Shown here piece by piece: positions 1,517 through 49,265 of a stretch of DNA of 54,166 nt. How positions within the stretch are numbered: position 1 is the stretch's first letter; each line of letters starts with the position of its first letter. The translations under genes and the position numbers were made by a program. This DNA is from a virus. The notes beneath the pieces were generated by a model. The model had not been told where the DNA came from, did no database searches, and worked only from the letters and a program-made list of their open reading frames with translations. The stretch lies in the IMG/VR virus record IMGVR_UViG_3300030380_000295, positions 1 to 54,166 of that record, one strand, 5' to 3'.

Positions 1517-3124
1517 TTATCTCCTGCCTGAAGGTACGTAATTTATATAAAGTCCATTAATGGTATATGGAGCTTTCGTATCATCACTAATTACTGTAAA
1601 ACTATTACTATGTCCACTACCTTGTAGTGCAACTCTTGTTAAAGGATTTTCTGCTCCACCAAATACGTTTGTATTAAATAAAGCTTCACCTAATATTGAT
1701 GGTGGGTCTATAATTCCTAAATCAAAAGGGTTTGGTGGTTGTGGAATATCGGTACTACCATAATCGAATCTAACTTGAACATCTGGTTCTACAACACCTT
1801 CTGCACTTGCAGAGACTTTTAAATAATGTAAAGTCTTTAATGTTCCTAAATCTCCATAGTCATAGTCTGGAGTTGCATAACGTGCTAAAATACTAGAGCC
1901 ATCAAATGTATTCCCAGTATCATGTTGATAAATGTACCCTTCAGTATCTCCATGATAATACTGTTCAACATTATTACTGTCAAACCCTGATCCAATAGCA
2001 GTAACTTCTAAACTTCTTGTTTCAGACCATTGAAATCCTTCAGGTCTTAGTGTTCCTATAATTCCTTTTTGTTGTGTCTGTTCTAGACTATCATTACAAT
2101 AAAATAATCTATATTGCGATTTATCTCTTAGTACAACGCTACTTATTATAAAGCTATTAATGCTTTCTGTCAAGTCTGTAACTAATGGTTGTATAGCCTT
2201 ACTTACAGTTCCTAATTCAACGTCACCAATTCTTGCTGTACCTGCAACTGTTCTTAGTCCATCAGGTGCTAAAAATATTAAGTCACCACCAATCTCTTGA
2301 ATACTGTAGCCACTTAAACAACCTACGTTTTTTGTAACTGGTACTATTGCAATATTACTTGCATCATTTATATTTATAAGTTTAAATATACTGTTTGTAC
2401 AAAATATAAATAACTCATTACGGAAACCTTTAATACCTTCTATTTGGTCTTCTAGTACTATTGAACCTGAACCGCTTCCACTAAAACTTGTTGGGTCTAA
2501 AGTAGAACTATAAAATACTGTATTTAAGTTATCTTCTACTCCTCCAACAATTAAATGTTTATCGTGAGTTGTAACATATTTTGCATGTTTAGTTCCAGTG
2601 ACGGTAATTTCTTCTGCAAAAAATGTTCTAGTACTTAAGTTTCCTGCCCCCTCCATTCTAAATAGATAAGGTTTATTTGCACCATCTGATATAATAACTT
2701 GACCATAATCAAATGTAGCACCATCAAACAATGTAAATTGACACTGCCCTTGTCCAGTTCTAGTAAGTGTACTACGTCCTGTAAATGCTGTATGATTGTC
2801 TCCACTTCCAGATACAGAAGCTCTTCCTATGTTTAACCAATTCTGTCCATCGTTACTAAAAAATATACCAGTACCTGCAGTAACTATAACACCATCAGCA
2901 TAAGTAAACGTACCTAGTATATTAGTTGCACCACCAGTAGGTCTTGTTGCATTAGTAGTACCAAATTTTTGATAGCCATTAATACGTCTATATCCACCCT
3001 CTGTAGATACTTCAAAGTTTCTAAGTTCTCTAGCTACACCGGGAGTTCTTAATAAGTCTATTGAGTTAGCAGACTTAACTAAACCACCATCACATGCAAC
3101 TGTATAAGGTTGCGATTGTGCCAC
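1517..3124 (-). CDS. Podoviral tail-hub / stabilisation protein (P22 gp10-like)
   Basis: The 535-aa product begins MAQSQPYTVACDGGLV and has an early RNFEVSTEGGYRRINGYQKF segment typical of podovirus tail proteins that build the tail tube or plug the portal channel. The rest is beta-rich with repeated short strands and no membrane segment. Its start overlaps the end of the 255-aa adaptor gene by one base, and the large fibre follows, the usual order adaptor - hub - fibre. Assignment to the P22 gp10-like family rests on recognition of the N-terminal pattern and position. A T7 gp12-like label is the alternative. Confidence 0.7.
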   Translation of the reverse strand: MAQSQPYTVACDGGLVKSANSIDLLRTPGVARELRNFEVSTEGGYRRINGYQKFGTTNATRPTGGATNILGTFTYADGVIVTAGTGIFFSNDGQNWLNIGRASVSGSGDNHTAFTGRSTLTRTGQGQCQFTLFDGATFDYGQVIISDGANKPYLFRMEGAGNLSTRTFFAEEITVTGTKHAKYVTTHDKHLIVGGVEDNLNTVFYSSTLDPTSFSGSGSGSIVLEDQIEGIKGFRNELFIFCTNSIFKLININDASNIAIVPVTKNVGCLSGYSIQEIGGDLIFLAPDGLRTVAGTARIGDVELGTVSKAIQPLVTDLTESINSFIISSVVLRDKSQYRLFYCNDSLEQTQQKGIIGTLRPEGFQWSETRSLEVTAIGSGFDSNNVEQYYHGDTEGYIYQHDTGNTFDGSSILARYATPDYDYGDLGTLKTLHYLKVSASAEGVVEPDVQVRFDYGSTDIPQPPNPFDLGIIDPPSILGEALFNTNVFGGAENPLTRVALQGSGHSNSFTVISDDTKAPYTINGLYINYVPSGRR

Positions 3125-11000: not shown

Positions 11001-11235
11001 ACTTCTTATCTATATGTTTTTTTAGTCCCATTCTTGAAAGTTTACGATTCGTACTGGCTTCTAGCCAATCTACTGCAACCGCTAAACTAATCTCATCGTT
11101 TCGTACCATTTGTGATACAACATTTAAAGCATGTATCTGTTCATCAATAGGTTTTAAATAACCATCTACTTCTGCATCAACTTCATAACCAAAAGGTATT
11201 GTTGATGTTTTTCTTTTTATATATCCTTCTTTCAT
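10936..11235 (-). CDS. Small helical protein upstream of large terminase
   Basis: The 99-aa product has a GYEVDAEVDGYLKPIDEQI segment followed by helices (VDWLEASTNRKLSRMGLKKH) that look like a helix-turn-helix, then a charged tail. It lies between the IscU gene and large terminase, overlapping terminase by 65 bases. A DNA-binding packaging accessory is plausible. I do not recognise a named function. Confidence 0.7.
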   Translation of the reverse strand: MKEGYIKRKTSTIPFGYEVDAEVDGYLKPIDEQIHALNVVSQMVRNDEISLAVAVDWLEASTNRKLSRMGLKKHIDKKYDRQRQEESDKNKFNSILDRF

Positions 11236-11648
11236 CTTTGATTATGTGTTCTATGTGCTATTTTACTTTCCCAATCTTCAATAGCTTTAGCTATACTTTC
11301 TTCTGCTAATACACTACAATGTAATTTAATTGGAGGTAAGTCTAGTGCTGCTGCTATGTCTTTATCTTTTATTTGCTTTGCTTCTTCAACTGTCTTACCT
11401 TTGAGCATCTCGACAAACATAGTACTAGATGCTATTGCAGAACCACAACCATATGTTTTAAACTTAACGTCTTCTATTGTGTCTCCATCAAGTTTAAGCT
11501 GTAGTCTCATTACATCTCCACATGCAGGTGCACCAGTCATACCTGTAGCAACATTAGGGTCTGTAGGATCAAACCTACCTACTGCATGTTTCTCAGGTTC
11601 ATTGAGGACACTTTCAAATCTTTCTATTACTTGTTGTGAATAAGCCAT
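11232..11648 (-). CDS. iscU: Fe-S cluster assembly scaffold IscU
   Basis: The 138-aa protein is close to full-length IscU. It keeps the three ligand cysteines and the conserved Asp (GAPACGDV, YGCGSAIASS, KLHCSVLAEE), plus the LPPIK motif that in bacteria binds the HscA chaperone. IscU holds a nascent [2Fe-2S] cluster built by a host IscS cysteine desulfurase, so the phage protein could plug into the host system. It is embedded in the packaging operon with overlapping neighbours, which suggests late co-expression with virion genes. No other isc gene is present. No Fe-S client protein was identified in this window. Confidence 0.93.
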   Translation of the reverse strand: MAYSQQVIERFESVLNEPEKHAVGRFDPTDPNVATGMTGAPACGDVMRLQLKLDGDTIEDVKFKTYGCGSAIASSTMFVEMLKGKTVEEAKQIKDKDIAAALDLPPIKLHCSVLAEESIAKAIEDWESKIAHRTHNQR

Positions 11649-17519: not shown

Positions 17520-17752
17520 ACGTTGAAGTTTATGAGTATGATTACAATGGTACTATGGTTCAATGGTATTGGAGTGATCAGAAAAAGAAAAAATGGAAGA
17601 CTTGGAAACCTAAGGTTGAGGATGTACTATTAGTAGACTTGACAGACGAAAAGCAAAATGGTATAATTGCCTTAGAAATTTTTGAGGGGATAATGGATAG
17701 AGAACATCCTAAAAAAGTTAAAGCAAAAGGAATATATAAAGTAAGGAGATGA
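17513..17752 (+). CDS. Early hypothetical protein, 79 aa
   Basis: Begins MVDVEVYEYDYNGTMVQWYW with a lysine/tryptophan-rich block (KKKKWKTWKPKVEDV). It is beta-rich with a charged C-terminus. It abuts the next gene directly. No family recognised. Confidence 0.65.
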   Translation: MVDVEVYEYDYNGTMVQWYWSDQKKKKWKTWKPKVEDVLLVDLTDEKQNGIIALEIFEGIMDREHPKKVKAKGIYKVRR

Positions 17753-28092: not shown

Positions 28093-28250
28093 TGGAAGAT
28101 TCATTTAGTCAGTTTTGTAGGAGGATGTGGTTAGACCATTGTGATGATAATAAAACACCACATTCTGTAACATACACAGAAGCAGAATATAAAAAAGAAT
28201 TTAACAAATGGCTACTGAAAAAGTATGCCGAAGAACAGGAAAAAACATGA
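28092..28250 (+). CDS. Small protein preceding NrdB, 52 aa
   Basis: ATG 28092 (TAATG overlap) to TGA 28250. The product MEDSFSQFCRRMWLDHCDDN... ends KWLLKKYAEEQEKT. It has aromatic and cysteine residues and no known domain. It ends in an ATGA overlap with the chosen NrdB start, which supports both assignments. Confidence 0.65.
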   Translation: MEDSFSQFCRRMWLDHCDDNKTPHSVTYTEAEYKKEFNKWLLKKYAEEQEKT

Positions 28251-29233
28251 GCTTATTAGGAACACAAAATTATTTTAAACCATTCGAGCATCCTTGGATG
28301 TTTGACTATTGGGATTTACAGCAACAGATGCATTGGATACCTAATGATGTACCTCTCAACACTGATGTAAAGGATTGGAACAATCATCTTACAGATGAAG
28401 AACGTAATTTAGTTAAACAAATATTTAGATTATTTACACAGTCAGATGTAGATGTAGGTGCAGCTTATATTCATAAGTATATGAAATTGTTCAGAAAACC
28501 AGAGGCACAATTAATGATGTCAGCATTTGCTAACATGGAAGGAATACATCAGGTTGCTTACAGTCAGCTACTAGAAACAATTGGTATGTCAGATAAAGAG
28601 TACAAAGCTTTTGCTGAATACGAAGAGATGGCTAACAAACATGAATATCTTTTAGACTTTAAACCTACAAGAAACAATAAACCAGAAATTGCAAAAGCGT
28701 TAGCAGTATACTCTGCATTCACCGAAGGACTACAGTTGTTTAGTAGCTTTGCAATCTTGTTAAACTTTCCTAGATATGGTAAGATGAAAGGTATGGGTCA
28801 GATTGTTACATACTCTATACGTGACGAGTCTCTACATGTTGAAGCTATGACTAAATTATTTAGAGAGTTTATAAAAGAAAATCCTGAGTTGTGGACTGAC
28901 GATCTGAAGAAAGAACTATATGATATCTGTAGAAAAATGGTAGAGCTAGAAGATAAATTTTTAGATTTAGTATTTGAGATGGGTAATCTTGAAGGACTTA
29001 CTAAAGATGAAATGTATGCATACAACAGATACATAGCTGATAGAAGATTATTACAGTTGGGATTAAAACCAAACTTTAAACAAAAAGACAATCCTTTGGA
29101 GTGGATTGACGAAGTAATAGGTGTTGAACATCAAAACTTTTTTGAAGGTAAAGCAACATCCTATATGAAAGCAGGGCTAAGAGGAAATCATGGAAGTTTA
29201 ACTTTTACGGAATTGCAAAATGAAAAAGAATGA
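28247..29233 (+). CDS. nrdB: Class I ribonucleotide reductase, small subunit
   Basis: I start it at ATG 28247 (MSLLGTQNYFKPFEHPWMFD), coupled by ATGA. An in-frame ATG at 28208 lies inside the previous gene. The 328-aa protein has the dimetal site: SDVDVGAAY, MEGIHQVAYSQLL (Glu, His and the candidate radical Tyr in E-x-x-H-x-x-x-Y), AFTEGLQLF and RDESLHVEAM. It ends in an acidic tail that would dock into NrdA. All ligands are intact. Confidence 0.95.
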   Translation: MSLLGTQNYFKPFEHPWMFDYWDLQQQMHWIPNDVPLNTDVKDWNNHLTDEERNLVKQIFRLFTQSDVDVGAAYIHKYMKLFRKPEAQLMMSAFANMEGIHQVAYSQLLETIGMSDKEYKAFAEYEEMANKHEYLLDFKPTRNNKPEIAKALAVYSAFTEGLQLFSSFAILLNFPRYGKMKGMGQIVTYSIRDESLHVEAMTKLFREFIKENPELWTDDLKKELYDICRKMVELEDKFLDLVFEMGNLEGLTKDEMYAYNRYIADRRLLQLGLKPNFKQKDNPLEWIDEVIGVEHQNFFEGKATSYMKAGLRGNHGSLTFTELQNEKE

Positions 29234-29438
29234 AGCCACATTAATTAGTTATAAATTAGTAATGGATCAAAAAGGAAAAGTGTATAGTGAACGTAGCATT
29301 AGTGATATAGATCAACTCGAAGAAAGATTTAATCCTATTTTATTTAATACTTTAAAGACTACACTGCGAAGAGCATCCTCTGAACTAGATACTATTCATA
29401 ATAAAATTGAAGCAGATTTAAATTGTAGAATTCAATAA
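29220..29438 (+). CDS. Last rightward gene, 72 aa hypothetical
   Basis: Begins MKKNEATLISYKLVMDQKGK, overlapping NrdB by 14 bases. It overlaps the cyclase gene tail to tail by 21 bases. I see no terminator between the converging arms. Function unknown. Confidence 0.6.
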   Translation: MKKNEATLISYKLVMDQKGKVYSERSISDIDQLEERFNPILFNTLKTTLRRASSELDTIHNKIEADLNCRIQ

Positions 29439-31199
29439 CGTATAAATTTTTAGTGGCTCTGTTTTACCTTTTACAGGTATTGGTTTTAAAACTTTAAAAA
29501 CATTTGAGCACTTAGATGTGGTTACATGAGTAATCAATAGATCATGTCCTGCTTCTTTACATGCTGACTCTGTTCTAGCTGCAGTATTAACAGCATCACC
29601 TATAGCTGTATAATCGAAACGTGATTCACTACCCATGTTTCCTATTACAGCTTCACCACTATTAATACCAATCCCAATAGCTATGGGATCAATGTTTTGG
29701 TTTTTTAATTCTTCATTCAAAGTTATCATTCCTTCTTGAATATCCAACGCACAGTCTACTGCTTTCTGTTCGTGTCCTTCCAAGTCTAATGGTGCTCCGA
29801 AGATAGCCATCATTGCATCACCAATATATTTATCTACCATACCACCATGTTTCTGAACAGCCTGTTGTTGTACAGTCAATGCTTTGTTCATAACATATGT
29901 TACATCTTGAGGATCAAGCTTCTCTGACATAGCTGTAAATCCTCTTACGTCTGTAAATAAAAAGGTACAGTACCTCTTTTCTCCACCCAACTTTAAAAGC
30001 TCCGGATTGTTTTGTAATCTCTTTATTTGAGCCGGGTCTAAATAGTGTTCAAACTGTTTTTTAATTTGCTGACGAAGTTTAAATTGTGTCCTATAATTTA
30101 GATAAAAAGCTACACTTGCAGTTATAAACTGTGAGATCAAAGACCACGACACATCTATCAAGATTCCACGCTGAATTAAGTAGTATCCAGAAAACGCTGT
30201 TAGAGCACCGATAAATCCTGCTAATACCAGTCCAAGGGTAATACCAAATACGTTTAATACAAGCCAAATACAGGCGATTGAGAGGGTAAATATGAGTACT
30301 TCTGCAGCTAGACTGTAATCAGGTATGTAAGGGCTATTCTGGACCAAGATTGACTCGGCTAATGCAGCTTGAATTTTGTGTGGTTCTAGTAATCCAACCG
30401 GTGTACTTAGCTGTGGCATAACACCGTTAGCTGTCACTCCAACAATCACAAACTTATCTTGGACAGACATATCTTTTAATGTTGTAGAAGGGGTATCAAC
30501 CCAACTAATCCACTTACGACCAAGAGAGTCTACAGGTACAGCAGGAATTCCTTTTACTCTAACTTCTTCTATACCATTTTGATTTGTTTTAATTACATAT
30601 GTATCAGCACCTGCTAAAACTTTTAAGACTTGTGTACCAAAAGAAGCTACCCAACCATCCGGAGTTCGCATTAACAAAGGTAGTCTTCTAACCAATCCAT
30701 CTACATCTATTGGAGCAGATGCAATCCCTTGAGTTGCTTTAGATTTTAACAAGTCTATATTCTCTACGACACCTGATAATTCATAACCACCTATATCATC
30801 TCCTAATATAACTGTTCCTTCTGTTCTAGGAAACTTACCATTGTTATATTCAAACATAGATAATATACTTGGATGCAATCCTAATACATTTGCTAACTCT
30901 TCATCACCTCCAAATCTATCAGGCTCACTAAATGATATAACATATCCAACACCTATAGCTCCACGATTCAATAACTCCATATGTATTTCAGCTAACCTTT
31001 GACGAGGTAAAGGATAACCACCTTCTCTTTGTATATCCTCCTCAGTTATGTCAAGGGTTGTAAAGTATCCTGAAGCTGACTGCTCTGGAATTAATGCATC
31101 AAAAGTTTTTAACTTCAATACTTCTAGAGGTAGCATATTAAACACAAGAGGAATACCAAGAAGCACTGTGAGTCCTAACCATTGTAATGTTTTTATCAT
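29418..31199 (-). CDS. CHASE2-domain adenylate cyclase (class III)
   Basis: The 593-aa inner-membrane protein has an N-terminal membrane segment (residues 5-25), a periplasmic CHASE2-like sensor to about 270, two to three membrane segments (about 285-365, e.g. ACIWLVLNVFGITLGLVLAG) and a short coiled coil. The cytoplasmic cyclase domain keeps both metal Asp (FLFTDVRGFT and KYIGDAMMAIFGAP), adenine-selecting Lys and Asp (DKYIGD, FDYTAIGDAVN) and catalytic Asn and Arg (AVNTAAR), so it should make cAMP. ATGA overlap with the FecR gene. Complete signalling enzymes of this type are rare in phages. Confidence 0.92.
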   Translation of the reverse strand: MIKTLQWLGLTVLLGIPLVFNMLPLEVLKLKTFDALIPEQSASGYFTTLDITEEDIQREGGYPLPRQRLAEIHMELLNRGAIGVGYVISFSEPDRFGGDEELANVLGLHPSILSMFEYNNGKFPRTEGTVILGDDIGGYELSGVVENIDLLKSKATQGIASAPIDVDGLVRRLPLLMRTPDGWVASFGTQVLKVLAGADTYVIKTNQNGIEEVRVKGIPAVPVDSLGRKWISWVDTPSTTLKDMSVQDKFVIVGVTANGVMPQLSTPVGLLEPHKIQAALAESILVQNSPYIPDYSLAAEVLIFTLSIACIWLVLNVFGITLGLVLAGFIGALTAFSGYYLIQRGILIDVSWSLISQFITASVAFYLNYRTQFKLRQQIKKQFEHYLDPAQIKRLQNNPELLKLGGEKRYCTFLFTDVRGFTAMSEKLDPQDVTYVMNKALTVQQQAVQKHGGMVDKYIGDAMMAIFGAPLDLEGHEQKAVDCALDIQEGMITLNEELKNQNIDPIAIGIGINSGEAVIGNMGSESRFDYTAIGDAVNTAARTESACKEAGHDLLITHVTTSKCSNVFKVLKPIPVKGKTEPLKIYTLLNSTI

Positions 31200-32278
31200 G
31201 AGCCTTGCCTTATCTTTATTGTTGATGAACCACCACCATTTACTTTGATGGTATGAGATACTCCGTCTTGTATTAAAATAAGAGTAAAACTTTCGTCACT
31301 ACCTGTATCTAATCTAAAAGAACTTTCTATATTTCTACGAAGACTTATTGTTTGTCCTTGTACTATAGTTGTAATTTGTGTATCAGCATCCTGTCCTATC
31401 TGTGTACCTACTAATGTAAATCCAGATACATCTTTTAGTTTATCTTCCTCTTCGTCTACTTGCAATACATCTAATACATCTAATAAGTCTTCGAGAAAGT
31501 TTACATCTAAATAATTTATATCTAATTCTGTAAACTCTAACTCTGCTTCTGCATCTAAAAAGTCTTCATTTAAATAGTCTATATCTAAATCATTAAAATC
31601 TAAAAATCCAGATGAGGAAGATACTGAAACTTCTTGAGCAAACTGTGGGTCTTCTTTTGGAGGTGTTACAATAAGCATGTTATCTATCAAGTCTAATGTA
31701 AGATCAAGGATTACTGGCTTACTTGGCGAGTTCTCAAAGACTGATACGCTTGTTGCTTGGAAAGGTTTGTTAAGTACAACAGTGCCTGTAGCTGTAGATA
31801 CAAGTATCTCACCACTAGATAAACCTTCTTCATCTGGTAAAAGTATTATTAAAGACCTGCCAAGTTCGTCTACAGTACAAGTAAAGTCTGTACCACGAAT
31901 TGCTATGTTTGCTGTTGGTGTTGAGAGATTAATGTTTTCTTTATTAATCTTACCAAGACTACTAGTGACAAATCGTATTGTGCCACTAGCAAATTGTAGA
32001 GCCATCTTAGATTTAGATGGGTCTGGATCGTAGATGTACTCATCAATAATTAACTGAGAATGTTCAGTCAATCGTACACGACTATCATCTAGAAATGTAA
32101 TGCCTAACCTTCCATTAGACGTTTGTACATTATCGTAACTGTCTATATCAAAAGCTAGGGTAGCAGCGTAAGCATCATCTCTTACAACTCTACCCGAACC
32201 TTCTAATTCTGTAATGCTTCCTATATCAGCAAGAAGTGGACAAGCCACCATCAGACTGAACCACACAGACTGTTCCAT
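31196..32278 (-). CDS. FecR-domain secreted protein
   Basis: I choose ATG 32278 (MEQSVWFSLMVACPLLADIG) because it gives a signal peptide and ACAGG lies six bases upstream. ATG at 32311 is alternative. The 360-aa product shows the FecR pattern: GSGRVVRDD, FLDDSRVRLTEHSQL, FASGTIRFVTS and TPTANIAIRGTDFTC. The C-terminal half is acidic with repeated DLDIDYLNEDFLDAEAEL-like stretches. FecR proteins commonly pair with CHASE2 cyclases in bacteria, so it may be the periplasmic partner. It overlaps the curlin-like gene by 53 bases. Confidence 0.85.
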   Translation of the reverse strand: MEQSVWFSLMVACPLLADIGSITELEGSGRVVRDDAYAATLAFDIDSYDNVQTSNGRLGITFLDDSRVRLTEHSQLIIDEYIYDPDPSKSKMALQFASGTIRFVTSSLGKINKENINLSTPTANIAIRGTDFTCTVDELGRSLIILLPDEEGLSSGEILVSTATGTVVLNKPFQATSVSVFENSPSKPVILDLTLDLIDNMLIVTPPKEDPQFAQEVSVSSSSGFLDFNDLDIDYLNEDFLDAEAELEFTELDINYLDVNFLEDLLDVLDVLQVDEEEDKLKDVSGFTLVGTQIGQDADTQITTIVQGQTISLRRNIESSFRLDTGSDESFTLILIQDGVSHTIKVNGGGSSTIKIRQGS

Positions 32279-32936
32279 TACTGCCTGTCGAATCGATTCT
32301 AAGCCAATCATTATCTAATGTACTCTGTTGATCTACGTTAAATGTTCTGGAACTACCTGTTTGATCTAAGTAAAAGTATCCTCCGGCATAACCATCACCA
32401 TCGAAAGTTACGCTGTTAGAGTTACCATCTATATCTACATAGCTTGTACCTGAGTCATAATCAATATCAAAGTCTAGTGTGTTACTATCACCTTGTATAA
32501 TCCAATCAAGATCAGTTGTACTTGCCATAGCTACAGTTGCAAGGTCTAAAGTAAATGTATTACTTGTACCTGTTACATCTACATTTAAGTTTGAACTATC
32601 AGCTCCATATGTGTTTGTTGGATCAACCTGTATATTAAACGTGTTACTGTCTCCATCAAACTCAAAGAAGCCTGTTAATGTATCAGCCAGAATATCTCCA
32701 AGAAATTTATTTGAGTCACCTATTTGATTTATGTCTAGTGTCATACTAGAACCATCTAAATCTAAAGGAGTCATTGTTCCTGCAACTGCATCAGTACCAC
32801 CAATGATGTTACCTGAACCTAACTGCTCTAAATCTATGTTAGCTGTAGCTCCTGACTGATCAACGTATATTTCGTTATCAGCCCCGAATGTCAATGCACT
32901 CACCACAATCAATAGGCTTAATGCTATCTTCTTCAT
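32226..32936 (-). CDS. Curlin-like repeat protein
   Basis: The 236-aa protein has a signal peptide (KKIALSLLIVVSALTFGA) and six to eight repeats with the curlin spacing, such as LEQLGSGNIIGG, LDINQIGDSNKF, FDGDSNTFNIQV, WIIQGDSNTLDF, YVDIDGNSNSVTF and FYLDQTGSSRTFNV. Curlin (CsgA/CsgB) repeats follow Q-x-G-x-x-N; here Asp and Gly often replace Gln, so the fibre surface would be acidic. The end has two cysteines (TVCVVQSDGGLSTSC). Encoded beside CsgG and CsgF, it is their likely exported substrate. It overlaps CsgG by 59 bases. Confidence 0.8.
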   Translation of the reverse strand: MKKIALSLLIVVSALTFGADNEIYVDQSGATANIDLEQLGSGNIIGGTDAVAGTMTPLDLDGSSMTLDINQIGDSNKFLGDILADTLTGFFEFDGDSNTFNIQVDPTNTYGADSSNLNVDVTGTSNTFTLDLATVAMASTTDLDWIIQGDSNTLDFDIDYDSGTSYVDIDGNSNSVTFDGDGYAGGYFYLDQTGSSRTFNVDQQSTLDNDWLRIDSTGSNGTVCVVQSDGGLSTSC

Positions 32937-33741
32937 ATTCCCAATATCCTCTATCTATTCCTGTTTCTATTATATTTAAAACACCTGTCTCTACTGCTCT
33001 TTGCAAAGCTATAGATACAGATTCGTTTTCTGTAAACCCTCCTTCAACTTCGACAAGTTCAGTTCCAAGTTCTATGAACCGAAATATATCTTGTGACAAA
33101 CCTACAGATAAAATACTTTTAGAGACTAATACCTCTATGAGTACTTCACCTGTGCTTACAGAAACCAATCGTAGGGAGATACTGACTGTATCTTCTCGGT
33201 ACTGTTTACTCGTACCTATGCCTAAATATCTAGCACCTAATCCACCACTACTCAGATTTGTATCGTAACTAATAACTCCACCTTGTACTAACAAACCTGC
33301 AAAGAGTAATGGTTTTAATTTATTATCCTCTTTGAATTCTTTTCTTGTTGTTCTTATGAGCTGTCTTTCTTTTGTAAGATCATCTAATCCTACTCGTTCT
33401 ACAACTTTAAAGAACTTCCCATCTGCAGCATGCTTAAAAGCCCTGATTAAAAAAGCTTCAGGTGCTTGGGTAATTGCTGTACTAAAAAGAGCAAACTCAC
33501 TGTTACTTTTACGTTGCCCTGTCAAGTCTTTGAAGCTGTTAGGGTATACTGCAATTGTCGGCTTATTTAAAGCTGCCGGTAAATCTTTTAATTCTTTTGA
33601 CTGTAAATCTAATACAGATGATTCTTGTATAACTATGTTAGGTATACCACCTGTAGTTAATAATGAATCATACTTGATAGCACAACTAGAAAGTAAAAGA
33701 CCCAATAGGCAAAGTGATAATTGTTTCATTCCCTTCTGCAT
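32878..33741 (-). CDS. csgG: Curli secretion channel CsgG
   Basis: The 287-aa lipoprotein (E. coli CsgG 277) has signal sequence and lipobox LLLSSC. Family features are KPTIAVYPNSFKDLTGQRKS, the constriction-to-beta region FFKVVERVGLDDLTKERQLI, GLLVQGGVISYDTN, GLGARYLGIGTSKQYREDTV and VSLRLV-type strands ending in TGEVL. CsgG forms a nonameric outer-membrane pore. The true start may be the second ATG (33729, MKQLSLCLLG). It overlaps CsgF by up to 56 bases. The C-terminal extension DCGECIDIRG contains two cysteines. Confidence 0.92.
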   Translation of the reverse strand: MQKGMKQLSLCLLGLLLSSCAIKYDSLLTTGGIPNIVIQESSVLDLQSKELKDLPAALNKPTIAVYPNSFKDLTGQRKSNSEFALFSTAITQAPEAFLIRAFKHAADGKFFKVVERVGLDDLTKERQLIRTTRKEFKEDNKLKPLLFAGLLVQGGVISYDTNLSSGGLGARYLGIGTSKQYREDTVSISLRLVSVSTGEVLIEVLVSKSILSVGLSQDIFRFIELGTELVEVEGGFTENESVSIALQRAVETGVLNIIETGIDRGYWEYEEDSIKPIDCGECIDIRG

Positions 33742-34201
33742 CCGTTATTTTTAGTGTGATATATTCTCCATCTGCTTCATACTCAATTGTATTACCTTCT
33801 AGTTCTACTTGACCAGACTCAGAGGGATTCTCTCCAAATAAATTTTCTACTAACTGCCTAGATAATTGTGCATATATTCTAGACTCTAAGTTTCTAATAA
33901 ATCTGGCAAGTGTTGTGTTCTTTGCTTCTCGTGCAAGCTCATCTTGATAAGCCTCTACCTCTGCTTTAATGGCTTCTTTCCTATTGAACTCTTGATTTTC
34001 TATTGTAAGGTAATGAGAGCTTGTGTTGTCACCCGAAAAGCTAGGGTTCTTAAACTTATGTACTAACTGATCTGCAGCTAGTGTGTTAATAAGAAACATT
34101 GACAAGATCATAAATGTTAATGCAACTATCTGTAACACCGACATGATAGCTACTTGTTTCATTGGGTGTATGTCTTCAATCTTAATCTTTTCTTTGATCA
34201 T
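33686..34201 (-). CDS. csgF: Curli assembly factor CsgF
   Basis: The 171-aa protein carries a signal segment (MKQVAIMSVLQIVALTFMIL ... NTLAA) and then DQLVHKFKNPSFSGDN. That is the CsgF mature N-terminus, the part that inserts in the CsgG pore (E. coli FQFRNPNFGG). The following NRKEAIKAEVEAYQDELARE and LESRIYAQLSRQLVENLFGE helices and a beta C-terminus (ITLKITDAEGNETIITLPIG) fit the family. The first 13 residues may be non-native; ATG at 34162 is alternative. It overlaps the upstream holin-like gene by 20 bases. Confidence 0.88.
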   Translation of the reverse strand: MIKEKIKIEDIHPMKQVAIMSVLQIVALTFMILSMFLINTLAADQLVHKFKNPSFSGDNTSSHYLTIENQEFNRKEAIKAEVEAYQDELAREAKNTTLARFIRNLESRIYAQLSRQLVENLFGENPSESGQVELEGNTIEYEADGEYITLKITDAEGNETIITLPIGSFTF

Positions 34202-34532
34202 CTCTATCAGCTTTTGCGATCTTGTTACTATCTATAAGTTGTGGTACTCCTAGTATAGTTTTGATAAGTGTATCTTGACGAATGATCTCATTGTCTAAAC
34301 TACGTACTCTGTCTATTAAGGCTACTAAGATACCATGCTGTGAATCTAACTTAGTACCTAGTCTTAGTTCCATTTGTTCTATTTGGTCAGCAACTTTATC
34401 ATCGAGTACATCAAGTTTAGTTTCCATACCATCAATAATACGATTAATAAGTTTCCAAATGAAGAAACCTAATCCTAATGCAGCAGCTATTGGAAAACCT
34501 ACTTCATTAATAAACTGAATTGCTTGGTCCAT
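34182..34532 (-). CDS. Holin-like membrane protein with coiled coil
   Basis: The 116-aa product has one membrane segment (GFPIAAALGLGFFIWKLINR, residues 12-32) and a long coiled coil (METKLDVLDDKVADQIEQME...). This matches the small one-segment holin-like/BhlA-type proteins. It sits between the three-segment holin cassette and CsgF. A holin or antiholin role is likely but not proven. Confidence 0.68.
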   Translation of the reverse strand: MDQAIQFINEVGFPIAAALGLGFFIWKLINRIIDGMETKLDVLDDKVADQIEQMELRLGTKLDSQHGILVALIDRVRSLDNEIIRQDTLIKTILGVPQLIDSNKIAKADRDDQRKD

Positions 34533-34683: not shown

Positions 34684-34861
34684 TGCTTTCAGTTGATTTA
34701 CACTCCGTTTTATTAAATTCATTCCATCTTAGGAATTTCTTGGTTTCTAAATCCCAAAACAATCCTTTATAACAATTATCTTGAGAGCCTTCTTCTTCGT
34801 TGTCGTGCCCGAACCAATTCCACCGTCCGTCCTCGATAACGTCTTTTAATTTCTGTTTCAT
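34673..34861 (-). CDS. Hypothetical protein in the lysis cassette, 62 aa
   Basis: Begins MKQKLKDVIEDGRWNWFGHD, overlapping the holin stop by one base. Tryptophan-rich and acidic (CYKGLFWDLETKKFLRW). No membrane segment and no known domain. Position suggests a lysis-associated role. Confidence 0.65.
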   Translation of the reverse strand: MKQKLKDVIEDGRWNWFGHDNEEEGSQDNCYKGLFWDLETKKFLRWNEFNKTECKSTESSDQ

Positions 34862-35331
34862 TAATCTTGTTTATTAGAAGCTCCAAAGTAAAAGCTTATT
34901 ACTGCAGAGGCTAGTCCTCCTAAGTAACCTAGTACTAAGTTTATTAATGCTTCTGAATTCTGTTCTGGTGGCTGTAAAGTTACTAAAAATATGTAGCCTA
35001 AGAAACCACCTACTGTTGCTATACCCATAATACGTGCTGTCCAGTCTTTACTAAACTTACCTCTAGCATCTTGTATGTCTGCTGTCTCAAGCTTAAAGAC
35101 ATCTACTTCAAGCTCTTTCATCTGGAGTTCAAACTCTTGTTCAGCTTTTTTAAGTTCAAGCATTTGCTCTGGTGTAGCTTCTTGTATAGCCTTCTCAATA
35201 GCTTTTGGTGTATTAGGTACTCCAAGTACATCTGCTATCATATTAGCTGCCATGCCTCCCATAGGACCGCCTAGTGCAGTGCCTATTGTAGGTGCTACTG
35301 CTCCTACTAAACTCTTTAACATATCTTTCAT
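34861..35331 (-). CDS. Holin (three-segment, gene-transfer-release type)
   Basis: The 156-aa protein has an N-terminal glycine-rich hydrophobic helix (VGAVAPTIGTALGGPMGGMA), a helical EATPEQMLELKKAEQEFELQ stretch, the conserved DIQDARGKFSKDWTARIMG turn and two C-terminal membrane segments (ATVGGFLGYIFLV, LINLVLGYLGGLASAVISFY). That is the pattern of the 3TM holin family found in alphaproteobacterial phages. It would set lysis timing. No separate endolysin gene is visible nearby. Confidence 0.85.
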   Translation of the reverse strand: MKDMLKSLVGAVAPTIGTALGGPMGGMAANMIADVLGVPNTPKAIEKAIQEATPEQMLELKKAEQEFELQMKELEVDVFKLETADIQDARGKFSKDWTARIMGIATVGGFLGYIFLVTLQPPEQNSEALINLVLGYLGGLASAVISFYFGASNKQD

Positions 35332-35477
35332 TCTTCGTCCTTATATATTACTTCCATCATATCTTCAAACATTAATCTATAATCTTCTAAAGACATAAAG
35401 GGCATATCTTGTTTTACTTGATGTAGGCAGTACTTCCTGTAACAACCTTCTAATTGATCTTCTAAATACAGTATCAT
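35328..35477 (-). CDS. Small conserved phage protein, 49 aa
   Basis: ATG 35477 to TGA 35328, overlapping the holin start (ATGA) and the ejection-protein stop by one base. The product MILYLEDQLEGCYRKYCLHQ ... YRLMFEDMMEVIYKDEE is of a type I recognise beside late genes of marine phages. Function unknown. Confidence 0.72.
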   Translation of the reverse strand: MILYLEDQLEGCYRKYCLHQVKQDMPFMSLEDYRLMFEDMMEVIYKDEE

Positions 35478-38400
35478 TATATCGTCCTATTCTTTTTTGT
35501 CAATTTTTTGGTAACTTTAAACTGAGCATTGTCAAATAATATGTAGTCGTCATTAGCATGAATACTATCATATCCTAAATCAGTTAAGGTGTTTCGTAAC
35601 TGGGTACTTTGTTTTATATCTAATAAAGGTTTAGTAACTTCTGGAGGATGTTTTGTGAAGTCTTGTATTAATTTTTGAGTGTCAGTATAATCATTTAATA
35701 AATTTTTAACCAGTTGTTTTGCATTTTGTTTATCTAACCTAGACCCGTTAATTAACTTGTCTTGCATTTCTTTGTTGTCTTGTAACAACTTAGTAAACTC
35801 TGAACCTGTTAGTTGATCTTCAGAGATTTGACCAAGCTCAAGAGGATTCACAATACTAAGTTTACCTATATATTTTATTTTCTTACCGCCTGATTTTCTA
35901 GGTTTAGTTGTAGCTCTTGGTCCTATGTTAGCTGCGTATTGTAACTCTTCGTCTAAGACGTTTACTAAGTCTGAGTCTACATATCTTACTACATCTTCTT
36001 TAACTGCTTCGGTAAAGAAGCTTGCTTCAATTTTTTTATACAATGGAGTTTTTAGATCAGACTCAAATATAGGCTCAGCTTTTCTAACTTCTTTAGTTAA
36101 ATGTCTAATTACATCGTCTTTATGTGAATCTTCTGTGAGAGTTCTAACTTGTGTAGCTTTTGTAGTATCAGCAATTTTATTTGCAAGTCCTCCTAAAGCA
36201 AAACCTCTACGATCTTCCACGTCTGTAGCTAAGACTCCTCCTAGTTCTGCGTATGTAAAAGGCATACCTCTTACTTTCTTTTCATCTGGTTCTTCGGAGG
36301 CATTAGGTACATCAACTATACCACCTTTTGCAAAACTGTAATCTCTAGTAGACTGTGCAAATCTACCTTTTTGTTTTCTTTCAGTTCCTGTAGGAAACAT
36401 ACTACCCCAAACAGCTTTGTCAGTTCCTCTACCAGATTTCTTCATAGAGTCTCGGATGTCTTTAGGTAACGCACTATAAAAAGGTACGTTAGTATATAAA
36501 GTTTCAATCAATCCTTTTCTGTACAAGACTGAATCAAAGACATCACTAACAATTGGACCTGTTGGAGTTTTTAAAAGTGCTCCGGCTTGACCACTACCAT
36601 AGGTTGCATTTTGATTAAAACGATACGCATAATCAGCAGGACCTAATCCTCCCCATCTTTGAACAGCTTCTAATACAATCGTACCATCATCTTCTTCTAA
36701 ACTTCTACCTCCACTCCTAACTGCGTTCATAAAGACTGCAATGCTTGTCATAGCTAAAGCTGTACCGGCAATCCTAGCAGAAGTTTGTCGTTTGTTTTCT
36801 ATGAGTCCTTCATTAATCCATCTCTTAAGAATGGTGTTGTTAAATACTGTTGGGTATCCTGCAAACTGAGCTAATATTTGTCCGGCAGGATGTGAGAACC
36901 ATAAAGGTCTGTTAGCTTCTGCAGTTGATGGGTTTAAAATAATTTCTCTTGTAAATCTATTAGCTCCTTTTTGGTAGTGATTTTTGTAAAAAGCAATTTG
37001 TTTGTTTTGTTCGAACTTACCTAAAGAAGAAGCTGTTCCTTGTCCTCTACCCTCATCAAACACTCCATCTTTATCTAAAGACCTTGCGTACCATTCTCTT
37101 GCAAATCTATCGTGAACACCAAGTCCATCTAAATGTTTTTTAATATATTCTTTCTTCGACTTACTTAGTGTCTTAACACCAGTTGCATCTAAATGTAAAT
37201 CTCTAGCGTGTTCTCTAATGATTCTTTTACCAGTTGTAAAAGCTGCTAACTGAACTGAGCCAGTCCATGAAGATAAGAAGTTTGCTTTGAAAAAAGCATT
37301 CTGCATTTTTTTAGCAAGTCCTCCTTCTAAAGCTTCACCAGTTAAACTTTCAATTCTATCCATGACAGCTTGTTCCATAGCTAGTCCGACTTTGTAAGCT
37401 TCTGTCCAATACTCGTCTTGCATATCTGCAAAACCTTTTACTTCTTTACCTCTCACTCGTCTTGCAAAAAACTTAATTTTGTCTATATCTTTTTTAACTC
37501 CTTTAACAATAGACTTTCCTACTTCTTTACTAGCTGCAAACTTACCACCTACTGAATCTATACGAGTTAAAAGTATTAGTGGTTCTGTTAAACTTGATAA
37601 TGTAGCTAACGGAAGGTGAGCCATTTGTTGTGATAGCTTAATAAAATCTAACGCTCCGACACCATATTTATTTTTAATTCTTATTTGATCAGTGTCTAAC
37701 CCAGTAACTCGTTCATGCATTAAACGTAGTCTACGAATTGTTTCGTCTATTTCATCTTCATTAATTTTTTCTTTACGTAATTCATTTCTAATAGGTATTA
37801 AAAATTTTTTTTCAAATGCAGCTTTGGTCTTGCCAAAGAACTGCGTTCTAGTAATGGCACGAGATGCATCAGTTACATAAGCCTCTAATACTTTTTCTAC
37901 ATCATTTTCTAAGTATGGAGCTAAAATATTATCATCTATTTTTGAAAATACTCTGTGTTGTAAAAACTGATGTCCTCCTCCGGCATTGTCTTTTGTTCCA
38001 AACTGAAAAGGTGTATGTCTTTTTTCAAGCATGTTGTTTACAATCTGCGTAGCTTTTAACTCTCTAGCTGCTAGTTTTTGTGTATCAGTTAGTTCTTCAA
38101 ATAAGCTAGTCTTACCTTCGCTAACTTCTTTAACAAAGTCTCTTTCAAATACTTCTTGATCTATCCATCTTGCATCTGCTCGTAACACTTTTTCTTCTTT
38201 ACCTGTAGCTCTCACTGCTTGAATGTAAGAATCCTCGGAGTACATATTTTGTGGGAGAGAATGTTCTGAGTCTTTAATAATATCTATTAATCCATCTTTG
38301 TCTGCTTTAATTTTAGAATGAGAAAAATGTCTTGGAAAGAAATGATCGACAAATTGATCTCTAGTTAATAAGCCTGTTGAAACACCTTCTTCAAATATTT

Positions 38401-46976: not shown

Positions 46977-49265
46977 CTATTCTCCGTTTAATTTACTTTC
47001 TAATTCTTCGACTTTTGCCGAAAGTTCTTGTACTGCTTTAGTTAAAATTGGTATGAGTGCCGCCTCTGCAACTCTTTGTTGTCCTGTACTATCATCATCA
47101 TCCCACATACTAAATCCATTTTTAATATCACTATGTTTATCAATAGCTGCTTTAACTTCTTGTGCTATAAAACCATGTTGACTTTTTTCGCTTTTGTATA
47201 CCTCTGTAGAACCTTCTTCGTAACCTTTAAACTCTGTAGGTAAATCACCTTTATTTCTGTAATTAAAAGTTACAGGTCTTAAATCGTTTATAAAGTTTAT
47301 TCCTACTGTAGAATCTACAATATCTTTTTTAACTCTTTCATCCGAAACAGTAGCCCACGTTGCTACACCATGCTGTGCTCTTATGTCAGAAGTGTTATTG
47401 CCTAGAGTTGTGTAGCCGGGTGCACAATCAATGTTATATCCTAGTCCGTGTGCTTGATTACCTCCCGCAGTTGTAGAATCAGTATAAGCACCAATAAGTA
47501 TATTACCACTACCTGTTGTGAGATTATCTCCATAAGTTCCTGTACTATAACCAAGAAGAGTATTACCATTTCCAGTAGTTATTTCATTACCTGATAGACC
47601 ACCTACACATGTATTTGTATCACCTGTCGTGCAATCTTGTAAAGCTAAATGTCCATATGCTGTGTTATTAGAAGCTGTTGTGTTAGCTGATAAAGCACCA
47701 TAGCCCATTGCTGTGCAAGAGTTTCCTGTAGTATTAGCATCTAAGGCTAACCCACCTACAGCAGTATTATCACCACCTGTAGTGTTTGCCGACATAGCAT
47801 TGTAGCCAATTGCTGTATTGTAAGTTGCAGTTGTATTAGCATCTAAGGCATAAGCACCTACAGCAGTACATTGTGCTCCTGTAGTGTTTCCTAATAATGC
47901 TACATAACCTACAGCAACATTATTTGCTGCGGTTGTACTAGCACCAAGAGCCGACCTACCAAGAGCTGTGTTGTAATTACCAGTAGTATTAGCATCAAGT
48001 GAATTTGCACCATAAGCTACATTTTGTGTTCCTGTAGTATTAGCTACCATGGAATTTAAACCCATTGCGGTATTAGTGCTTCCAGTTGTAGTTACTTTAA
48101 GAGCCTGATGTCCTACTGCTGTATTGTTACTAACAGTAGAATCAGCTAATGCAAATGCCCCTACTGCAACATTTTGTGCTCCTGTTTGATTGTCTGTTAA
48201 AGCAGCATATCCTAAAGCAACATTATCATCCGCAGAAGTGTTTGCGTCTAAAGAATATGTTCCTACTGCTACATTTTGAGTTCCTGTAGTATTTGCTCCC
48301 AAAGCACTTGTTCCAACTGCTGTATTATTACTTGCAGTAGTGTTTGAATCTAAAGCCTCTTTACCAACTGCTGTATTGTTTGCTCCTGTCGTATTATTCT
48401 GTAAAGTTGCATATCCAACTCCAGTATTACTTGCTCCTGTAGTATTTACTTGTAAAGCTACTCTACCAACTGCTGTGTTAAAAGATGCGGTTGTGTTTGC
48501 ACTTAATGATGATGTACCTAAAGAAGTGTTATATGAACCAGTTGTATTAGCATCAAGAGCGTTTGAACCTATTGCTGTGTTTTGTGTTCCTGTAGTGTTT
48601 GCATATAAAGCTTGATAACCAACTGCTGTGTTGTAAGAAGCTGTGGTATTAGCACCTAAAGCATGAACACCTAATCCAACATTCTGTGCTCCAGTAGTAT
48701 TAGAATCTAAGGATAAACCTCCAACTGCTGTATTATCAGCACCTGTAGTGTTTGCTCCGAGTGCTGAGTAACCTATTCCTGTGCCATAACTTGCAGTAGT
48801 GTTTGCATCTAAAGCCGCATAGCCCGTAGCAGTATTTCCTGTTCCTGTAGTGTTTGCTGCTAAAGCACTTCTGCCAACTGCTACGTTGTAATTTGCTGTA
48901 GTGTTTGCTACTAAAGAATTAAATCCGAATGCTGTATTGTTCTCTCCTGTCGTATTTACTAATAAAGAGTTTAATCCTACAGCAGTATTATTTGATGCAG
49001 TAGTATTATCTCTTAAAGCATTCATTCCTACAGCAACATTCTGAGTGCCTGTGGTGTTTGCATATAAAGTTTGATAACCCACTGCAACATTATTATCACC
49101 AGTAGTCAAAGCTCCAAAAACCCTTACACCAACACCTGTATTATAATTAGCAGCATCTATAGTACCAGTCGCATCATTACCAATCATAATTGATGAAGTA
49201 CCAAAAGCTTTTGATGTCAGTGCTGCTGAATTTAATACTTCACTCGTTACTTTAGTTATTGCCAT
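46977..49265 (-). CDS. Tail fibre with YadA-like head repeats and S74 chaperone
   Basis: The 762-aa fibre begins MAITKVTSEVLNSAALTSKA. It then carries about forty 14-residue repeats of the form NTAVGYQALYANTTG, the pattern of YadA/trimeric adhesin head domains, expected to form a trimeric left-handed beta roll. The last 130 residues are an intact peptidase S74 intramolecular chaperone: TVSDERVKKDIVDS with the catalytic Ser and Lys, then SQHGFIAQEVKAAIDKHSD and a closing coiled coil. It should trimerise and then cut off its chaperone. Confidence 0.9.
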   Translation of the reverse strand: MAITKVTSEVLNSAALTSKAFGTSSIMIGNDATGTIDAANYNTGVGVRVFGALTTGDNNVAVGYQTLYANTTGTQNVAVGMNALRDNTTASNNTAVGLNSLLVNTTGENNTAFGFNSLVANTTANYNVAVGRSALAANTTGTGNTATGYAALDANTTASYGTGIGYSALGANTTGADNTAVGGLSLDSNTTGAQNVGLGVHALGANTTASYNTAVGYQALYANTTGTQNTAIGSNALDANTTGSYNTSLGTSSLSANTTASFNTAVGRVALQVNTTGASNTGVGYATLQNNTTGANNTAVGKEALDSNTTASNNTAVGTSALGANTTGTQNVAVGTYSLDANTSADDNVALGYAALTDNQTGAQNVAVGAFALADSTVSNNTAVGHQALKVTTTGSTNTAMGLNSMVANTTGTQNVAYGANSLDANTTGNYNTALGRSALGASTTAANNVAVGYVALLGNTTGAQCTAVGAYALDANTTATYNTAIGYNAMSANTTGGDNTAVGGLALDANTTGNSCTAMGYGALSANTTASNNTAYGHLALQDCTTGDTNTCVGGLSGNEITTGNGNTLLGYSTGTYGDNLTTGSGNILIGAYTDSTTAGGNQAHGLGYNIDCAPGYTTLGNNTSDIRAQHGVATWATVSDERVKKDIVDSTVGINFINDLRPVTFNYRNKGDLPTEFKGYEEGSTEVYKSEKSQHGFIAQEVKAAIDKHSDIKNGFSMWDDDDSTGQQRVAEAALIPILTKAVQELSAKVEELESKLNGE

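Follow-up and report, generated by a model that had tools for sequence, protein, structure and literature searches.

The locus analyzed here raises the question of why phages should keep an adenylate cyclase under strong selection when class III cyclases and cyclic-nucleotide-binding proteins are both missing from most of the SAR11 bacteria presumed to be their hosts. Phage cyclases accompanied by curli genes have already been published. The window (the entire 54,166-nt stretch of IMG/VR record IMGVR_UViG_3300030380_000295) had been reported in a preliminary description to hold a complete CHASE2 adenylate cyclase through which a phage would make host cAMP under the control of an extracellular sensor.

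Ribonucleotide reductase (RNR), DNA polymerase, terminase, portal and capsid genes surround the cyclase cassette within the window, whose two ends overlap by 100 nt (99/100 identical) inside one tail-protein gene that runs off both of them; this overlap points to a nearly complete genome of about 54.07 kb. The nearest matches to the terminase (64%), DNA polymerase (51-52%) and capsid (50-58%) come from the Pelagibacter phages HTVC103P, HTVC104P and HTVC115P, with the HMO-2011-type phages next closest for the terminase and among the next for the capsid. By these markers the source is a short-tailed marine phage of the HTVC103P/HMO-2011 type with a near-complete genome of ~54 kb. Its host is likely, but not certain, to be SAR11, since the hosts of the uncultured HTVC103P relatives (group IV) are unknown (PMC8528129). 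HTVC115P shares the flanking genes, i.e., RNR (its small subunit being 67% identical to that of the window) and a small gene resembling the 72-aa phage protein, which in the window lies tail to tail with the cyclase gene with a 21-nt overlap, but it carries gp35-gp39 where the cassette stands. This suggests that the junction between the replication and virion arms of the genome is a variable site, and that the cassette is inserted there. Elsewhere in the window, an IscU/NifU-like Fe-S scaffold gene (11232-11648, minus strand) lies beside the terminase genes; its iscU match (E 5.5e-46) is under the cut-off of the model, and its phrog_8429 label is that of an auxiliary metabolic gene. A virion-side protein (46977-49265, minus strand) with many near-identical 'NTTG..N.A.G..AL' repeats and a chaperone-like C-terminal end is reminiscent of tail-fibre proteins.

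In favor of an assembly chimera, in which bacterial DNA has been joined onto a phage contig, phage-like cassettes are also encountered in bacterial bins. However, the junctions with the RNR and membrane-protein genes are the same in the independent contigs L002-L005, L007 and L069, the GC content is uniform (0.360 vs 0.358), and phage isolates carry the cassette, so that the probability of such an artefact, which the preliminary description had itself raised, is practically nil and it can be set aside. The bacterial bins in question comprise four contigs (L085, L086, L090 and L108) binned as Pelagibacter, Neomarinimicrobiota and Flavobacteriaceae, which are probably phage contigs in bacterial bins; in L108 (G433), IscU-like and IscA-like genes also lie close to the csg cassette.

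The cyclase ORF is intact, with both the CHASE2 (residues 18-303, E 3.4e-28; PF05226, 99 bits) and the Guanylate_cyc domain (residues 410-588, E 7.7e-22; PF00211, 78 bits against a cut-off of 21.9) matching Pfam far over cut-off, and hydropathy alone placing hydrophobic segments before (~5-28) and after (~308-342) CHASE2. As had been described, the catalytic residues are in place: the metal-binding Asp417 and Asp461, the adenine residue Lys457 and the transition-state residues Asn538 and Arg542. Among the phage cyclases (n=83), both aspartates and the Lys457 position are invariant (83/83 each), and N538 and R542 are each kept in 82/83. The ATP pair had been given as Lys/Asp, but the residue paired with Lys457 is Thr531, which in PDB alignments falls on a Thr in both cyanobacterial CyaC (1wc1) and Pseudomonas CyaB (3r5g), which are class IIIb enzymes; the position holds Ser in 8/83 phage cyclases. 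Hence, on account of this Lys/Thr pair, the protein is classed as IIIb, and its sequence features are those of a membrane-anchored class IIIb cyclase whose product would be cAMP. The dN/dS of the gene is 0.06-0.10 across informative phage pairs (the near-identical pair L078/L079 being uninformative) and that of the catalytic domain is 0.08; the cyclase is thus under strong purifying selection. This retention of catalytic residues and strong purifying selection across the phage copies is new here. The cyclase of the isolate Melnitz, a Methylophilales phage (L084:8826-10877), has Ser for the catalytic Asn and is the sole copy with Asp at the Thr position. It stands apart in this from the remaining phage copies, and its activity may be altered or lost.

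The cyclase is not a lone gene; it closes a tightly packed CsgF-CsgG-curlin-like-FecR-cyclase operon (Table 1), which by its gene content is a phage type VIII (curli) secretion system (T8SS) cassette. From the 116-aa gene to the cyclase, successive genes overlap by 20, 56, 59, 86 and 4 nt, the 86-nt value depending on an uncertain FecR start codon for which a later ATG is possible. The curlin-like gene lies where HTVC008M and Melnitz have their 'curlin associated' genes; its product stays below the Pfam Curlin_rpt (PF07012) cut-off that the Melnitz counterpart reaches, has weak NCBIfam CsgA/CsgB matches (E 0.002), and yields a beta-rich AF2 model (pLDDT 84) with no significant match in a structure search of the PDB. 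In the AF2 model of the FecR protein, residues ~30-200 resemble the FecR-type domains of PupR and BDI_1681, i.e., FecR-type anti-sigma signalling domains, and the C-terminal half has no confident fold. Its C-terminal end carries a conserved N-G-G...I-x-I-x-Q motif that looks like half a curlin repeat, by which FecR might contact the fibre. No CsgE family match was found among the cassette proteins with Pfam and NCBIfam, and pelagiphages likewise lack CsgE (PMC9599517); since CsgE is not essential for curli (PMC7029224), its absence does not bar membership of the T8SS.

Table 1. Features of the cyclase cassette and its borders (window coordinates)
Feature	Position	Strand	Evidence and remarks
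Ribonucleotide reductase small subunit	28208..29233	+	Pfam; convergent phage gene bounding the cassette
72-aa phage protein	29220..29438	+	phrog_27180; short HTVC115P match
CHASE2 + class IIIb adenylate cyclase (predicted), 593 aa	29418..31199	-	Pfam, residues, PDB alignments, dN/dS; last gene of the cassette
FecR-domain protein, 371 aa, hydrophobic N-terminus	31196..32311	-	Pfam FecR E 3e-11
Curlin-like repeat protein, 236 aa, hydrophobic N-terminus	32226..32936	-	Repeated N/G/Q-rich units; position
CsgG outer-membrane secretion pore subunit, LSSC lipobox-like start	32878..33741	-	Pfam CsgG E 6e-50 (PF03783, 170 bits); PDB CsgG E 1e-45
CsgF	33686..34201	-	Pfam CsgF E 1.5e-20 (PF10614, 74 bits)
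116-aa protein, hydrophobic segment + coiled-coil-like	34182..34532	-	PHROG, Pfam, hydropathy; just upstream of csgF
156-aa membrane protein, two hydrophobic segments near C-terminus	34861..35331	-	phrog_1544
Sigma-70-type promoter match TTGACA-N16-TATAAT	35476..35503	-	Perfect 12/12; precedes the cassette segment

The promoter match is conserved in position in L002 and L069, where its spacer is 17 nt, and perfect matches of this type number three in the window against 0.23 expected; the other two (TTGACA-N17-TATAAT) lie at 2145-2173 (minus strand) and 17639-17667 (plus strand). The gene just before csgF is labelled a histidine kinase in PMC9599517, whereas in the window it encodes a small membrane protein with a coiled-coil-like region, weakly holin-like. 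We set the kinase label aside, as Pfam searches with E up to 1 detect no kinase domain in this protein or in four HTVC008M/Melnitz counterparts. The proteins at this position are 92-116 aa long; the N-terminus is hydrophobic in the majority of them, and the tail resembles a coiled coil.

Contrary to what had been supposed, the presence of a cyclase in a phage is not itself novel. Pelagimyophages were described as carrying curli genes in 2020 (Zaragoza-Solas 2020, PMC7029224), and CsgF, CsgG, CsgA/B, FecR and adenylate cyclase were subsequently described in HTVC023P-type podophages, nine genomes of which have the T8SS, and in myophages (Wittmers 2022, PMC9599517). The same study found the phage T8SS genes expressed in metatranscriptomes and proposed for the cassette an alphaproteobacterial origin with transfer between phage families (PMC9599517), and the cyclase is annotated in the isolates HTVC008M and Melnitz. 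The window is therefore a further member of a known group in another phage lineage; a limited literature search yielded no earlier account of such a cassette in phages of the HTVC103P/HMO-2011 type. It shares with the HTVC023P-type podophages and pelagimyophages the order CsgF-CsgG-curlin-FecR-(curlin)-adenylate cyclase, with the cyclase last, but differs in its phage lineage (by TerL, DNA polymerase and capsid) and in lacking the second curlin gene. As in HTVC008M and Melnitz, a CHASE2 class III cyclase closes the cassette, but their cyclases are only ~32-33% identical to that of the window and form a separate deep branch in the cyclase tree.

Gene order is the same across the 80 viral loci nearest to that of the window, some having a second curlin gene before the cyclase. 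Wherever the flank was long enough, FecR (54/54), curlin (40/40), CsgG (32/32), CsgF (28/28) and the small membrane protein (22/22) stand upstream of the cyclase, in loci chosen by similarity to the window cyclase, so that the arrangement may differ around phage cyclases less closely related to it. This constant placement behind FecR, curlin, CsgG and CsgF is new here. A lone host-derived cyclase was rejected, as FecR accompanied the gene in every locus with a flank long enough to tell. The suggestion that FecR is its partner has gained from this and from the direct adjacency of the two genes, and is now likely. In L069 (3569-8324), CsgF, CsgG, curlin and the first ~110 FecR codons are 86-95% like the window, whereas the remainder of FecR and the cyclase are much less so (66% for the cyclase); this drop suggests a recombination point inside the FecR domain, and hence that the FecR C-terminus and the cyclase travelled together. 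Separately, the unannotated 1499-base record OR851715.1 (Salmonella phage S.Kent 1-2-1) has a CsgG match and may be bacterial DNA.

Bacterial T8SS operons have been said to exclude FecR and the cyclase (PMC9599517). A scan of bacterial genomes, however, recovered CsgF-CsgG-curlin-FecR-cyclase operons in Hyphomonas TMED17 (L088, a 705 kb contig) and two Caulobacteraceae MAGs (L087, L091). Ordinary chromosomal genes lie on either side in L087 and L088, the two inspected closely, and in the bacteria the GC content of the operon is somewhat under that of the flanks. The phages and these three loci are split from 30 other alphaproteobacterial CHASE2 cyclases in the cyclase tree (SH-aLRT 100) and from 26 other loci in the CsgG tree (support 100/100), and no FecR or cyclase homologue lies within the fetched flanks of those 26. 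Taken together, the trees and this absence point to a rare variant as the kin of the phage cassette, and away from the curli operon that is common in alphaproteobacteria; judged by its genes, the cassette shares common ancestry with the variant. Such chromosomal operons of the same order, grouping with the phages in both trees, are new here. The bacterial genes differ from those of the window in sequence (cyclase about 36-37% and CsgG 46-48% identical), in an additional ~100-aa tail on the cyclase, and in that the upstream small membrane protein was not detected. The ordinary caulobacterial curli operons were rejected as the direct donor, being outside in the CsgG tree and free of FecR/cyclase homologues nearby (26 loci), as was a Pelagibacteraceae host cyclase, for only two matches over the PF00211 cut-off occur in 79 genomes, both on contigs with a phage-type cassette. 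The search for a bacterial donor envisaged in the preliminary description thus yielded the nearest kin; on these unrooted trees, transfer between phages and bacteria may have run either way. The cyclase may have entered phages once or twice, with two label changes in the cyclase tree and phage CsgG forming one side of a branch at 92/79.

The reading that we favor, and hold to be fairly probable, is that the cyclase is the signalling end of a phage-borne curli secretion cassette akin to the rare alphaproteobacterial operon. A strong promoter after the virion genes would drive, and presumably time, the expression of one operon of overlapping genes, in the order two small membrane proteins, CsgF, CsgG, curlin-like protein, FecR protein and cyclase. 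CsgG and CsgF would form an outer-membrane pore exporting the curlin-like protein; the periplasmic FecR protein would signal the state of the pore or fibre by contact with the CHASE2 domain, and this would in turn set the activity of the cytoplasmic cyclase domain, so that a signal from the fibre could pass through FecR to the cyclase and on to its effect. This mechanism is supported by Sinorhizobium CyaD1, which makes cAMP constitutively without CHASE2 (PMC5498481), and by the Campylobacterota, in which CHASE2 cyclases are clustered with a FecR outer-membrane protein (PMC9239204). The latter cluster differs in having a phosphodiesterase and a TPR protein, and curli genes go unmentioned in the passage on it. 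Against the favored reading stand the sub-threshold curlin-like protein, the absence of CsgE, the lack of clumping with Melnitz, which has a related cassette (PMC9004378), the scarcity of cAMP-receptor domains in Pelagibacteraceae, which gives the output no evident reader, and the Melnitz cyclase without its catalytic Asn.

Some of these features would equally suit a lysis device, the main rival, in which CsgG-CsgF are a phage-controlled outer-membrane pore, FecR and the cyclase time its opening or lysis, and no surface fibres are made. The cassette comes directly after two small membrane proteins, one of them the weakly holin-like protein, behind one promoter; a lysis role for CsgGF has been proposed in the study that saw no clumping (PMC9004378), and the CsgE gate is absent. 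However, a bare pore needs no curlin-like protein, and one stands between CsgG and FecR in all 40 loci with enough flank, with a second such gene in many relatives, and we accordingly regard lysis timing as unlikely.

The preliminary description had the cyclase tune host physiology, for which a CRP-like receptor would be the usual route; the enzyme as such is intact and selected, with a complete class IIIb active site, and a host outside SAR11 may have CRP, given that the hosts of group IV are unknown. But a cNMP-binding domain (PF00027) was matched in only 4/79 Pelagibacteraceae genomes, one of the four being an FNR-like regulator (L110), and in none of the other 75, in a sample of possibly incomplete genomes and with a search positive in 10/14 known control genomes. 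Further, PF00027 is missing from the window and 12 other phage records (13/13), including the complete HTVC008M and Melnitz; Pelagibacter HTCC1062 is the host of HTVC008M, an isolate that has the same cassette. These domain counts in Pelagibacteraceae and phages are new here. The tuning of host physiology by this route is thus doubtful, and we consider it decidedly improbable, more so than lysis timing; if the host is SAR11, these domain counts suggest that the usual cAMP-CRP route is mostly closed. A narrow literature search found no report on SAR11 and cyclic nucleotides.

Returning to the favored curli-signalling reading, its bacterial kin constitute a definable operon in which FecR and the cyclase belong to the curli system. 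We tentatively suggest, as a possibility of rather low probability, that in a host lacking a class III cyclase and a CRP-type receptor the nucleotide of the cassette is read by a non-CRP receptor or within the cassette, making it a self-contained phage-borne second-messenger loop. If confirmed, this would mean cAMP signalling beyond the known receptor during infections of one of the most abundant bacterial groups of the ocean.
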